DNA of 20,627 nucleotides from a virus, in the IMG/VR virus record IMGVR_UViG_3300025645_000574, positions 1-20,627 of that record; one strand, 5' to 3'. Shown here piece after piece: positions 8,615-20,627 of the stretch. Made by a program: the position numbers and the translations under genes. The notes beneath the pieces were generated by a model. It did no database searches, had not been told where the DNA came from, and saw only the letters and a list, made by a program, of their open reading frames with translations. Position 1 is the first letter of the stretch; each line of letters starts with the position of its first letter.

Positions 8615-9163
8615 TTAAGCGATCTGCACATACTCAATGATGAAAGTAAAAGATCCTGCAGTAGTCGCATCAACGGTATTAGTGATGTTGCAGAAAATCG
8701 TTCTTGCAGCAGAAGTGTACTGAACAGAAGCAGGGGCCGTAGTGCCGCTTTGCGTCTGGGCCACAAGCGTTGTTGTGGTTACGTTGTGCTCAACAACAGT
8801 CGTACCGCCGTCCAAAATCTCATCAGTCACTGCCGCAACAATCTGTGCGCCAGAAGACGAAGTACCAACCTCATAACCAATGTCACCCGTACCAATAACT
8901 GGTGAGGTGTCACAGAAGATCTTGATGTCAGTGATGATTGTGTTGGCAGGCTGCGTGAACTCGCCAATAGAAGGACTATCGCCAGCAGTGGTGTTAACCG
9001 TTACCCCTGTGGCAAAACCTACGTGCTTGACGTACTTGTTCGTAACAATGCCCGTAGAGGCAATGTTTGCAACATCGGTAAAAGCGCCAGTAGTGGCATT
9101 TTTTGAAACTACAGTAAAACCGTTCTCTGAACGGACGGGACCGTTGAAAGTAGTATTAGCCAT
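8615..9163 (-). CDS. Virion structural protein, probably beta-rich decoration or tail protein
   Basis: The product has 182 residues. The start MANTTFNGPVRSENGFTVVS is typical of a group of marine phage virion proteins. The rest is Thr/Ala/Val/Ile-rich with several likely strands and ends SFTFIIEYVQIA. GGAGA lies 7 bases upstream of the ATG. It is the first gene after the terminator that follows the major capsid gene, so it either depends on read-through or has its own promoter, which I could not identify. Function is inferred only from composition and place. Confidence 0.75.
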   Translation of the reverse strand: MANTTFNGPVRSENGFTVVSKNATTGAFTDVANIASTGIVTNKYVKHVGFATGVTVNTTAGDSPSIGEFTQPANTIITDIKIFCDTSPVIGTGDIGYEVGTSSSGAQIVAAVTDEILDGGTTVVEHNVTTTTLVAQTQSGTTAPASVQYTSAARTIFCNITNTVDATTAGSFTFIIEYVQIA

Positions 9164-9240
9164 GATTTTCTCCTGTCTTGGCCGGTGTCAGCCACGGAAT
9201 GCGGCTGTCAGGATCAGTCAACAATAACTAAACAACAGGC

Positions 9241-9289: not shown

Positions 9290-10195
9290 TTACGCGCCCG
9301 GAGTACCAAACACGGCACGCCAATCGCTGACGCCGAAAGAGTATCTTTCGCGAGCTTTGAAGCGCATGTTGCCGGTGTCAAAGTCCCCTTCCATCGCTGT
9401 TTTGATGGGGGTTCTGTTGAACAGTTTGAAGCCGTTAGGAGCGTCTGTCTTGATGAAGAAAGCGTCACTGTCCGTAAGGAAGTGGTTCACTACTGCACCG
9501 TCAGGAAGCATACCCATTGACTTGTTGGCGTTAATATCATTATCCGCCGTTCCGGAACGCAGGTTTGAGTTCAGCACTCGTTCTGCGATGAATTGCAGTT
9601 CTTTTGGAATGATCAACTTCATTCCACGAACGGCAATCTTCAGACCTCTTTCGTCGGTCAAACCAGCAATTTCAATCAGCATTTGCTCAAGCGACGTCTC
9701 ATTGAGGTCGGCAGCAGTTGCCAAAAGGTTTGTTTGGTTACCAGAGATAGAGGGGTGAGCCGCTGAACAAAGAGCCGCACCATCACCAATCGGTGATCCA
9801 GTGCTGAATGCATTGTTCAGAACGGTAGCTGCACGGATTTGCTTGGTTTGAGACATCGAACGAGCTAGTGCGCGTGTATAACGTGCTGCCAGACGGTCGT
9901 ACAAATTGTCTTCTATGGCTTCCTCGGTGATCGAAAAAGCCAACGCTATTGTTTCCATCGTATATCGTGCAGTGTAAGTCTCCTGCGCGTCATCAAATGA
10001 AATTGCGGTGCCTTCTGATTTCACAGGGGCAGTACCAAACCCTGAAAGCATGACTTCTTCTTCGAACGCTCGGTCAGAAGTTTCTTCGTCAAAAATTTCA
10101 GCGTGCTCTTGATCGTAACGATCATACTCCAAGCCGAACAAAGCATTTAGGCCGGGTTCAAGCTCTTTCGCTAATTGTGCGCGAGTAATAGGCAT
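9290..10195 (-). CDS. Major capsid protein (HK97-fold type)
   Basis: The product has 301 residues. Residues 45-100 (LSGFGTAPVKSEGTAISFDD to AFSITEEAIEDNLYDRLAAR) fit the E-loop and following spine-helix region of HK97-fold capsid proteins. The GAALCSAAHPSISG segment (139-152) and the C-terminal NRTPIKTAMEGDFDTGN then MRFKARERYSFGVSDWRAVF (260-296) match a group of major capsid proteins common in phages of this layout. There is no cleaved N-terminal scaffold extension and the gene begins directly with an ordered helix. AGGAG lies 6 bases upstream. It follows the scaffold candidate and a decoration candidate and is followed by a strong terminator, consistent with a highly expressed late gene. 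Confidence 0.9.
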   Translation of the reverse strand: MPITRAQLAKELEPGLNALFGLEYDRYDQEHAEIFDEETSDRAFEEEVMLSGFGTAPVKSEGTAISFDDAQETYTARYTMETIALAFSITEEAIEDNLYDRLAARYTRALARSMSQTKQIRAATVLNNAFSTGSPIGDGAALCSAAHPSISGNQTNLLATAADLNETSLEQMLIEIAGLTDERGLKIAVRGMKLIIPKELQFIAERVLNSNLRSGTADNDINANKSMGMLPDGAVVNHFLTDSDAFFIKTDAPNGFKLFNRTPIKTAMEGDFDTGNMRFKARERYSFGVSDWRAVFGTPGA

Positions 10196-17696: not shown

Positions 17697-19172
17697 TTAT
17701 CCATAATAATTAGCCGCCGAAACTAATTGACTCGACGCATAGCCTTCTTCCCAATCGTCACTGGGCAGGCTCACAAAGTTCCCTTGGCGATATCGCATCA
17801 ACGCCTGCGTCGTGCTGTCCACCAAGTCATCGTGGGTCCCGTTCGGGAATGCAGCACACTCTTCAATTACTTCGTGCGCCCAACTCTCATCCGGAGCCCA
17901 GATCATCCCCGCTTCAAACAGCGGAGAGATAGAATGTACTCTTGATAACTTATCATTACCACGACTAGGCGTGAAATTTACAACCGGTATGCCGACCTGC
18001 CGCAGTTCGTGGGTCAGAGGGGTCCCTGTGGCTTTTGCCTCGATAATTACCGTTTCTGGCTCCCAATATTTGTATTGCTCCAACGCAATGTCTTTCAACT
18101 CAGGAAAATCCCATCGCCCCTTCTTCGCATCCAGCAAGATAAGGTTCGCGGGGCCCCCAGCTTCTTCCGGGTAAAACACACCCCACGTAGTAATCGCACT
18201 GTAGTCCGCTGTCTCGCGTTTCGAAAACGCCGTGTCGTAGCTTTGGATTACATACTGCAGGTCCGGGATCGACGCACCTTCCCAAAAACGCCACCACTCT
18301 CGCTTCAATATAGCCAACGTCTCGGACGTCGGCGCCTGTTGATACTGCGCGTTCCACTGGTACGGCGGTATCGACGCCTTGACCGACTCCAACTCCTCTT
18401 TCTTCCAGAACTCAGGCCAAGTGGGCTCGCCAGATGGCAAAATTGCAGGTAATTCAACGACTTCCCACTGATCTGCATTGGGGTCTTTAGTCATTTGACG
18501 GATCAAATTGCCCGTCATGTCCTTCTCAGACCACCGCGTCTGTACCAGAACGATCGCCCCACCCGGCTGTAAACGCTGCCGGGGACCCGCCGTGTACCAC
18601 TCCCACGCATTCTCAAACCCGCTCGCCGACATCGCCGTCTGCTCCGAGTGCGGATCGTCAATAATGATCAAATCACCACCACGGCCCGCCAAGTTCGAAC
18701 CGACACCCACCGCGTAATACATACCACCGGATTTCGTGTCCCAGCGCCCTGACGCCTTACTGTCCACCGACAAGACCGTATTATCGAATATCTCCTGATA
18801 ATCGTCCTGCTCCAGAAGATTCTTGACCTTCCTACCGAAGTTCACCGCAAGTTCGGTCGTATGCGTCGCCTGTATGATCTTCATCGCCGGATTACGACCA
18901 ATCATCCACGCCGGAAACAAAAAAGACGCAAACTCACTCTTCGTATGACGCGGGGGCATGTTGATTATCAACCGCTTCAACGTCCCATTCGCGATCTCTT
19001 CCAACTTCTCAGCAATCAAATAGTGATGCCGACCCGCAATAAACTGCGGCCACATAGAATTTACAAATGGTAAAAAATTATTTTGGCAGGATTCCACACG
19101 CTCAAGTTGCTTCAGACGCAACTCCAAACGTAATTTCTGAACATCCGTGGTCGAATCCAAAGAGAGACTCAT
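17697..19172 (-). CDS. terL: Terminase large subunit
   Basis: The product has 491 residues, a normal length. The ATPase domain has a Walker A variant MPPRHTKSE (72-80) and Walker B DLIIIDDP (167-174), with a coupling motif region QTRWSEKD (211-218). The C-terminal nuclease has the expected acidic residues: SYDTAFS (D313), VIIEAKATG (E378) and GTHDDLVDS (D448/D449), an RNase H-like metal site. It packages DNA through the portal and makes the cuts. The ATG overlaps the TGA of the nuclease gene upstream (ATGA). The AAG-free PPRHTKSE form of the P-loop is usual for this terminase group. Confidence 0.96.
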   Translation of the reverse strand: MSLSLDSTTDVQKLRLELRLKQLERVESCQNNFLPFVNSMWPQFIAGRHHYLIAEKLEEIANGTLKRLIINMPPRHTKSEFASFLFPAWMIGRNPAMKIIQATHTTELAVNFGRKVKNLLEQDDYQEIFDNTVLSVDSKASGRWDTKSGGMYYAVGVGSNLAGRGGDLIIIDDPHSEQTAMSASGFENAWEWYTAGPRQRLQPGGAIVLVQTRWSEKDMTGNLIRQMTKDPNADQWEVVELPAILPSGEPTWPEFWKKEELESVKASIPPYQWNAQYQQAPTSETLAILKREWWRFWEGASIPDLQYVIQSYDTAFSKRETADYSAITTWGVFYPEEAGGPANLILLDAKKGRWDFPELKDIALEQYKYWEPETVIIEAKATGTPLTHELRQVGIPVVNFTPSRGNDKLSRVHSISPLFEAGMIWAPDESWAHEVIEECAAFPNGTHDDLVDSTTQALMRYRQGNFVSLPSDDWEEGYASSQLVSAANYYG

Positions 19173-19588
19173 AGGGGTCCCTGACTCAAATACTCAACAA
19201 GCGGCTCATAGCCCGCCGAGCACGGAAACGTCAAACTCGGCGGCGATGCGTGCATGCCCTTCACCGATACATCCATCACTTGATCTGCTGAATACAATAA
19301 ACACTCCGCTTGTGTGTCCGAGGGCCGCCAACGCTGGACCAATACCCAGCAATTACTGCCCTGATGCCGAACCGCAAAACTGACCTGAAACGGCGACAAC
19401 TTGATCTGATTGCCCTTCGCAACCTTCAACTCGATCATATGCAGCCGCTTGTTACGGTCCATCAACAATAAATCCGGTATACCCGGCGTCTGACTGTTCT
19501 CAATGCGAGTCAGCACCACGTCCGAGTCCAGCTTCTCAATGTTGGACTTTAACGTCTTCCAGAAGTTCGACTCCGTCCGCTTCGACAT
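19169..19588 (-). CDS. PD-(D/E)XK / VRR-NUC-like nuclease in the terminase operon
   Basis: The product has 139 residues. GIPDLLLM (D39), MIELKVAKG (E53-x-K55) and LSPFQVSF (Q68) form the classic PD...ExK...Q layout of the PD-(D/E)XK superfamily, in the small VRR-NUC-like form. The N-terminal SNFWKTLKSNIEKL helix also fits that group. Members are structure-specific or nicking endonucleases; a role in resolving branched DNA before packaging, or in cos/pac cutting, is inferred from its place between terS and terL. Its ATG lies 53 bases inside the end of terS, a longer overlap than elsewhere in the window, and no later start preserves the helix. It overlaps terL by 4 bases. Confidence 0.75.
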   Translation of the reverse strand: MSKRTESNFWKTLKSNIEKLDSDVVLTRIENSQTPGIPDLLLMDRNKRLHMIELKVAKGNQIKLSPFQVSFAVRHQGSNCWVLVQRWRPSDTQAECLLYSADQVMDVSVKGMHASPPSLTFPCSAGYEPLVEYLSQGPL

Positions 19589-20081
19589 TGATTACCTTTT
19601 CACCCAACTGGGCCTTCAACTCGTTCAACGCCTTCACAACCTCTTCTTTCGACATCTGGTCAATCGACCCGTGACGAACTTCACTCTTGTTGACGTAGAT
19701 GTCACCTTGGGCCAAGCCCCGTGCTTTCTCAGCCTGCACCGCAGCACTGTACGCCCCGGCTTCCAGAGCCTCGTCACGTATTCGTTGCAGATCTCTTATG
19801 TGTCGCGAGTAGTTAACCTCGTACTTCTCCGCTAACTCACGTCGCCGCTCACGCAGCGCCTTCGCAATATGCGGTGATTTGTTCGGATTTAACATCTCAT
19901 ACGCACGGGTGTGCGCACCTTTGACACTGAATCCCGCCTCTGCGGCCAGATTACGGAGCGTATCCTGACCCTCTCGCGTCGCAACCAACTCGACAAACTT
20001 CACTTGCTTTCCGGTTAGCCGACTATTTTCCGTTACGCGCGGGCGGCCACGCGTTTCAACTTTTCCTGCCTCTTTAGCCAT
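19536..20081 (-). CDS. terS: Terminase small subunit
   Basis: The product has 181 residues. A basic start (RGRPR) is followed by an N-terminal helix-turn-helix section LTGKQVKFVELVATREGQDT ... AAEAGFSVKGAHTRAYEMLN, the DNA-recognition domain of small terminases, then a central oligomerising coiled region (RHIRDLQRIRDEALEAGAYS) and an acidic C-terminal tail (VEADGVELLEDVKVQH) that would contact the large subunit. It selects the packaging start site and hands DNA to TerL. The ribosome site is weak (GGGA 10 bases upstream). It is the first gene after the GC-rich non-coding region, where a pac or cos site might lie. Confidence 0.85.
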   Translation of the reverse strand: MAKEAGKVETRGRPRVTENSRLTGKQVKFVELVATREGQDTLRNLAAEAGFSVKGAHTRAYEMLNPNKSPHIAKALRERRRELAEKYEVNYSRHIRDLQRIRDEALEAGAYSAAVQAEKARGLAQGDIYVNKSEVRHGSIDQMSKEEVVKALNELKAQLGEKVINVEADGVELLEDVKVQH

Positions 20082-20346
20082 GCATCAAATCCCATATCAG
20101 AGTGGACTTGGGACGCAAATATAGCACTTTTTTATCACAGTTAAAGGCCCTTGGTACTTCGTTGGTTTTTATTGTGAATTGTTTGCGTGAAACCTGCACC
20201 TTTACACGCTTTGTTTTTTTTACCCAACGGCCGCGTTGGAATCGCCGGGGCGTCGATCCCTGTGCATTGTTGTTAGCCTCTATTGTCCGGGGGACCCGAG
20301 CCGGGGACCCGGGCCCGGGGGCCATGCTGCGCGGACCGGGGGCCAA
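20074..20346 (-). CDS. Doubtful ORF upstream of terS (90 aa)
   Basis: This open frame begins within the GC-rich boxes (MAPGPRSMAPGPGSPARVPR) and ends 8 bases inside terS (ATGGCTAA). The last 45 residues (VSRKQFTIKTNEVPRAFNCD ... RPKSTLIWDLMHG) have a more protein-like composition. There is no ribosome site at the first ATG, the start is simply translated repeat, and a candidate promoter lies inside. It is probably non-coding, but the neat overlap with terS keeps the possibility open. Confidence 0.2.
   Translation of the reverse strand: MAPGPRSMAPGPGSPARVPRTIEANNNAQGSTPRRFQRGRWVKKTKRVKVQVSRKQFTIKTNEVPRAFNCDKKVLYLRPKSTLIWDLMHG
20118..20145 (-). promoter_or_regulatory. Weak candidate promoter for the packaging operon
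   Basis: On the minus strand TTTAAC (20145-20140), a 16-base spacer and TATATT (20123-20118) lie about 37 bases before the terS ATG, in an AT-rich stretch. The -10 matches 5 of 6 sigma70 bases; the -35 only 3 of 6. Phage late genes often use other polymerases, so this is tentative. Confidence 0.3.
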
Positions 20347-20540
20347 TATTCGCGGACCTTGGAAGTTAAAAAACGGCCCAAAATGACTTCCACGTTTTTA
20401 AAAACACAAACGTCCACGGGGCGCGGGCCTTGGATCACGGCCGGCGAATCGCGGACCGGGGGCCATGCGCCGGGGCCAATGGATCACGCACCACGGGGCG
20501 CGGTACGAATCAGGCCGCCCGGGGGAGGCGGGCCGGGGCC
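20245..20540. repeat. Cluster of eight CCGGGG boxes
   Basis: Eight copies fall within 296 bases. Spacings are 42, 14, 14, 21, 120, 14 and 63; all but one are multiples of 7. Several copies share the extension GGCCA(A/T). Only scattered single copies were seen in the rest of the window. Confidence 0.7.
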
Positions 20541-20564: not shown

Positions 20565-20591
20565 AAAAAAAAGGCCCGCACATGGCGGGCC
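20565..20591 (-). terminator. Rho-independent terminator of the upstream gene
   Basis: On the minus strand a perfect 7-bp GC stem (GGCCCGC / GCGGGCC, 20573-20591) with a 5-base loop is followed by eight T. It lies 20 bases after the stop codon at 20611-20613 and separates the upstream gene from the packaging operon. Confidence 0.85.
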
Positions 20592-20610: not shown

Positions 20611-20627
20611 TTAGAAGTCAAAGCCGA
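20611..20627 (-). CDS. C-terminal end of an upstream gene (partial)
   Basis: Only the last codons are in the window, reading Gly-Phe-Asp-Phe then TAA (20613-20611). The terminator just downstream supports a real gene end. An acidic-aromatic tail such as this occurs on single-stranded-DNA-binding proteins among others, but four residues cannot identify a family. Confidence 0.45.

Follow-up and report, generated by a model that had tools for sequence, protein, structure and literature searches.

We find that the boundary ahead of the terminase operon in this phage genome is laid out, in order, as a terminator, a conserved motif (core0), a heptad-phased array, a conserved anchor (core1), a spacer of fixed length, a second anchor (core2), a late promoter and the terminase operon. 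We propose, with a probability of roughly 0.4, that this boundary acts as a combined early/late control and packaging-start (pac-like) element, with the array as a live 7-bp minisatellite. Across a large group of marine bacterial viruses, fast-changing DNA with a 7-base rhythm and two conserved sites about 98 bases apart probably mark both the start of packaging and the late-gene switch. HTVC023P-type relatives reportedly rank with the most abundant of all ocean pelagiphages (PMC9599517), yet the openly licensed literature yielded no account of their packaging or late-control sites.

The window, i.e., the whole stretch of DNA that was analyzed, is a 20.6-kb IMG/VR contig (20,627 nucleotides) with its genes on the minus strand, where they follow in the order upstream gene end, terminator, the region described here, terS, a nuclease-like gene, terL, a gene for a 685-aa protein, portal and, later, a capsid protein. 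The 3′ end of the upstream gene (20611–20627, minus strand; ...GFDF stop), as read from the sequence, belongs to a gene that runs off the window, and its transcription unit is closed by a Rho-independent terminator with a 7-bp GC stem, GGCCCGC/GCGGGCC, and a T run (20565–20591, minus strand). Most relatives have a stem and T run in the corresponding position, about 54 bp ahead of core0. Core0 (TTCGTACCGC, 20500–20509, minus strand; family form WWCGTACNG) forms the distal end of the array and was located in 44 modules, 51–56 bp from the terminator. The hypervariable array (20297–20499), with the degenerate unit CC[CG][CT]GNN on the minus strand, contains most of the CCGGGG boxes and an AT-rich inverted repeat, TGGAAGT...ACTTCCA, read from the sequence (20360–20392). 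It is followed by core1 (GGTCCCCCGGACAATAGAGG, 20277–20296, minus strand), the spacer (20208–20272), which contains the CCGGGG at 20245, and core2 (GTGTAAAGGTGCAGGTTTCACGCAAACAAT, 20178–20207, minus strand); both anchors are conserved in relatives. A sigma70-like late-operon promoter is predicted at 20118–20145 on the minus strand (TTTAAC – 16 bp – TATATT) and is conserved in the alignment; a promoter scan did not report these hexamers, which are too far from consensus. In the window clade, the first gene of the operon is terS (19536–20081, minus strand; PHROG 51, E 5.7e-6), followed by the small nuclease-like gene (19169–19588, minus strand; 139 aa; weak VRR_NUC, PHROG 2165) and terL (17697–19172, minus strand; Terminase_6C, E 1.6e-12; PHROG 38, E 4.6e-111). 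The closest named phages by TerL are 023Pt_psg01, HTVC027P, DSL-LC04 and HTVC023P, with genomes of 57–62 kb. In HTVC027P, a reading frame that by eye resembles the nuclease-like gene adjoins terS.

CCGGGG occurs 16 times in the window when both strands are counted (shuffles: mean 6.1, maximum 13), and nine plus-strand copies fall within 294 bp (20245–20538), starting at 20245, 20287, 20301, 20315, 20336, 20456, 20470, 20519 and 20533. The preliminary description had recognized this cluster, and the cluster is real, but the count of eight boxes overlooked the one at 20519. Its observation that nearly all spacings are multiples of 7 holds for seven of the eight (42, 14, 14, 21, 120, 14, 49, 14), with the listed spacing of 63 being in reality 49 + 14, and the two 15-base copies reported 120 bases apart are present as GCGGACCGGGGGCCA at 20331 and 20451. 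The 120-bp separation is not a multiple of 7, and the phase slips at the central AT-rich inverted repeat; the second copy of another direct repeat, CCACGGGGCGCGG, lies 77 bp (11 × 7) away. Over about 320 bp, the self-match fractions at lags of 7, 14, 21 and 28 are 0.39, 0.40, 0.38 and 0.37, corresponding to z values of 4.8, 4.5, 4.2 and 3.6 against dinucleotide shuffles. The period-7 signal extends beyond the CCGGGG boxes, and the array is its clear maximum within the window, with no comparable place. The array is GC-rich, noncoding DNA in 7-bp phase: the Pro/Arg frames across it, which had been dismissed as proteins at the outset, are indeed not genes, as judged by length differences of 7 bp between near-identical relatives that would shift any frame.

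Of 371 relatives returned by a terS search, 80 were taken for comparison, and 44 distinct arrays were extracted. Mean match fractions, calculated only from distinct arrays longer than 140 bp, are 0.395, 0.375, 0.359, 0.337 and 0.343 at lags of 7, 14, 21, 28 and 35, with other lags at about 0.25–0.29. The gap in close relatives can be written in sevens as a row of heptamers (e.g., CCGCGAT, CCCCGGT, CCGTGGT), and the array locus has the strongest period-7 signal in nearly every clade member that holds the whole gap; in a 50.9-kb contig it is likewise the clear maximum. What is shared is the degenerate heptamer CC[CG][CT]GNN (43/44 arrays) and, in 30 of the 44, an AT-rich inverted repeat of the form GGAAGT-N-ACTTCC. 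CCGGGG itself varies widely in copy number, with three or more copies on the terS-sense strand in only 16 of 44 relatives, and we therefore set it aside both as a conserved box and as the protein-bound unit that had been proposed. Heptamer repeats forming a G-quadruplex were rejected as well, the pattern of four G-runs with short loops being found in only 13 of 44 arrays.

The length of the array ranges from 107 to 477 bp in the 44 distinct relatives. The cleanest near-identical pairs differ by 7 bp (L057/L060 and L061/L062), 14 bp (L029/L056) and 35 bp (L008/L026), from which it follows that array length changes partly by whole heptads, the kind of whole-unit copy-number change seen in bacterial 7-bp tandem repeats. 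Differences of 62 and 115 bp, which are not whole heptads, also occur between relatives; the L017 and L019 arrays are identical except for a 115-bp block. In the mechanism that we propose, the array would be a 7-bp minisatellite that slippage lengthens and shortens and that is retained as flexible periodic DNA beside the cores, not as boxes read for their sequence. It is also quite conceivable, at somewhat less than even odds, that the array has no sequence function at all and is a neutral 7-bp minisatellite produced by polymerase slippage in untranscribed DNA, with only core1, core2 and the promoter being of consequence. The wide length range, the freely changing unit sequence and the several length steps of 7 all fit such neutrality, as does the over-representation of heptamers among bacterial repeats, for which slippage linked to the footprint of the polymerase has been put forward (PMC4692102), and the occurrence of CAAGCNN heptads in unrelated bacterial chromosomes and marine phages. 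However, the array is never shorter than 107 bp where both bounding anchors were found, the AT-rich inverted repeat recurs, and distant relatives have period-7 arrays built from other units near terS or terL. Neutrality of the array can coexist with either a packaging-start or a promoter-control role of the anchors.

The anchors and the spacer form a rigid module. Core1, GGGTCCCCC..NCAATNRAGGYTA, was found in the form GGGTCCCCC-NNN-CAATNRAGGYTA in 59 contigs, and the distance from its start to that of core2, GCAGGTTTNACGCAAACA, is 96–99 bp in 40 of 40 distinct sequences. A scan of IMG/VR for core1 and core2 separated by any gap of 66–96 (31 spacings) gave 58 contigs with one copy each, which are related and so do not represent 58 independent events; the matches are 115–118 bases long, i.e., only four consecutive spacings out of the 31 allowed. 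The spacer is 65–67 bp long in the family, but its sequences sort into at least 10 classes, some of which resemble each other no better than shuffles do; since one class recurs in distant subclades, it has been exchanged. The distance from core2 to the −10 hexamer varies (60, 61, 73 or 75), which indicates that core1 and core2 are a unit independent of the promoter. A structured RNA element was considered and rejected: predicted folds of 11 sequences, both strands, are no better than shuffles (z −0.4 to +1.9), no covariation was seen between the spacer classes (term −0.1), and Rfam has no match in the array and module region. The lack of a fold and of covariation points to DNA geometry rather than RNA. 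The conserved anchors, the rigid spacing, the single copy per contig and the fixed place bear out the earlier suggestion of a cis-acting noncoding element. One protein complex may hold both core1 and core2 on DNA that is bent or wrapped, with distance rather than sequence setting the place of a cut or loop. Since it occurs once per contig and its spacing is rigid, the module supplies precise positions for primer extension, for end-mapping and for tests of TerS/TerL binding, and the many spacer swaps at unchanged length amount to a natural experiment that bears on whether it is sequence or shape that terminase reads.

What the module marks is the beginning of the late operon that contains terL, whichever gene comes first. 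In 55 distinct modules the gene directly downstream is terS (50) or terL (5), at a distance of 80, 86 or 98–99 bp. In a second phage type, terS lies 4–5 kb away from terL, and it is directly before terL that array, core1, spacer, core2 and promoter are found; the constant is therefore the start of the terL operon, not terS. In the TerS tree, phages with and without an array upstream of terS interleave because it is terS that moves, not the module. In the TerL tree, where the second type is represented by only two phages, the phages with terS-proximal placement do not form one clade. The preliminary description had named as a refutation of its reading any relatives that lack the boxes but keep the sequence upstream of terS. 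This applies only in part. The array is in fact absent before some TerS genes whose products are about 80% identical to those with an adjoining module, but the whole module is then found before terL, as expected of an element that belongs to the operon. Given this similarity, TerS does not obviously read the module. Co-evolution of TerS with the site was rejected, since only residues 4 and 100 track site type perfectly and the apparent swap reflects terS relocation. A tie between the array and the GP88 and DUF932 genes was also discarded as shared neighborhood only, since GP88, and in part DUF932, remain upstream of the module in both phage types. The displaced terS has conserved upstream dyads of its own, TGCCGGTAC...GTACCGGCA and GGTGGGAC...GTCCCAC (L032–L038, L040, L045, L046, L073, L077), which constitute a second candidate regulatory or packaging site.

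This placement brings in the main rival to our proposal, late-promoter control alone, which explains most of the same facts: core1 and core2 would be sites for a phage activator or repressor acting on a conserved promoter, and the array an enhancer-like or insulating stretch upstream, following the early terminator. The module always adjoins the leading gene of the operon with terL, be it terS or terL itself, and a conserved promoter and terminator stand at the two ends of the region. On the other hand, the distance between core2 and the promoter shifts by as much as 15 bp and that between core1 and core2 does not, which is unusual for an activator at one promoter, and in one 36.7-kb relative, Pfam identified none of the 23 ORFs that lie upstream of the module as an RHH or HTH regulator. 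We regard promoter control alone as rather unlikely, though deserving of serious attention.

The packaging reading that we favor draws on the pac sites of SPP1 and SF6 (pacL–pacC–pacR). SPP1 pac has direct repeats and spans promoters and the start of terS, and for SPP1 TerS it has been suggested that about 100 bp of DNA wrap around the protein, with hardly any preference for sequence (PMC4737164); TerS holds the flanking sites, and TerL cuts between them (PMC4737164, PMC6316719). The region described here has direct repeats and overlaps a promoter as well, and it adjoins terS in 50 of 55 modules but terL in the other five; where SPP1/SF6 cleavage falls between two flanking sites, here two anchors at a set distance are seen in the sequence. 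It differs in that SPP1 pac reaches into terS, whereas our module ends before the first gene and can precede terL; the heptad phase, hypervariable length and exchangeable spacer of fixed length are likewise features not mentioned for SPP1 in the passages cited. Based on the SPP1-like place, the promoter overlap, the two fixed anchors and the sequence-free middle, we favor a packaging-start site joined to the late promoter, where packaging would begin at a pac-like site as in SPP1. Counting against it, TerS does not obviously read the module, the TerL tree does not unite the phages with terS-proximal placement, late-promoter control fits the position equally well, and the array could be neutral. 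Headful packaging would be compatible with the terminal-overlap circularization reported for HTVC023P-type relatives (PMC9599517). The same circularization argues against a cos site cut at one exact position within core1 or the spacer, an explanation that we consider improbable: the region adjoins the terminase operon and contig ends look over-represented in it, but in the few contigs concerned the ends are spread over the stretch between the array interior and core2, on both sides, and most contigs run through. For the same reason, we abandoned reading an exact genome end from these few contig ends, which are scattered over array, cores and spacer.

P1 pac consists of clustered hexamer boxes of fixed sequence around an IHF site, inside the terS gene. 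The present region resembles it in that short boxes cluster to either side of a bend-like, AT-rich segment, but its units drift and the site is intergenic. The parS of pSM19035 is an array of 7-bp heptads bound by omega (PMC9499535) and shares contiguous 7-bp units with our array; its conserved heptad and dedicated partition genes were not found here. That an omega/ParB-type ribbon-helix-helix protein coats the array by reading its heptads thus has this precedent, but omega's heptad, WATCACW, differs from CC[CG][CT]GNN, the units are too variable, and no ribbon-helix-helix or delta/omega gene was present among the upstream ORFs scanned in one relative, so that we consider such a coat very improbable. 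A replication origin, also raised in the preliminary description, would have the heptads as iterons and the AT-rich stretch after core2 as an unwinding element. Repeat-rich DNA does adjoin AT-rich DNA there, with early replication genes upstream, but iterons are expected to keep their sequence and these units are degenerate and differ between relatives. In three complete relatives outside the window clade, cumulative GC skew simply tracks the direction of the genes and does not switch at the array, and the suggestion of an origin is accordingly hard to sustain. The early region of the 36.7-kb relative (L438) encodes an archaeo-eukaryotic (TOTE-type) primase, a UvrD-like helicase and a family A polymerase.

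Heptad arrays also occur beyond this clade. In bacteria, heptanucleotide repeats (GGGGATT/GGGAATC in Nostoc and Xanthomonas, and those of Calothrix) are likewise intergenic 7-bp tandem units of variable copy number (PMC4692102), but they are dispersed at many loci, in contrast to one fixed locus per phage with degenerate units and conserved bounding anchors. Heptameric arrays or terminase-site repeats of the kind described here were not found in the openly licensed literature. CAAGCNN heptads form at least 120 stretches in IMG/VR contigs; among 80 of these loci that were read, a GP88 gene lies beside or between the arrays in 55, and also in HTVC027P. In DSL-LC04, CCGTGNN heptads lie upstream of terL. 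The spread of CAAGCNN and CCGTGNN, together with the known excess of heptamers (PMC4692102), supports the view that the 7-bp rhythm arose by mutation and that selection keeps the locus in place. A more far-reaching version of our proposal, which we put forward as speculation with little weight, is a packaging start based on geometry, in which anchors about 98 bp apart would position terminase on a sequence-free spacer, the array would be kept for its periodicity, and distant aquatic phages would have the same design, built from different heptamers (CCGYGNN, CAAGCNN), close to their terminase genes.

The CAAGCNN arrays beside or flanking the GP88-family gene of marine phages (L119:5051–6283, HTVC027P gp33, and 55 contigs among L125–L204) typically lie 45–80 bp before the gene and often about 115 bp after it. 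CAAGCNN is also found in intergenic DNA of many Pseudomonas and Halomonas chromosomes, and of Alcanivorax (L253–L309), where the heptads often make up both arms of an inverted repeat close to the ends of genes. Finally, a Mu-gpT-DE RNA motif (RF03012, 65.6 bits) is present in the window at 9161–9213 on the minus strand, shortly past the point where the coding sequence of the Mu gpT-like capsid gene (9290–10195) ends.
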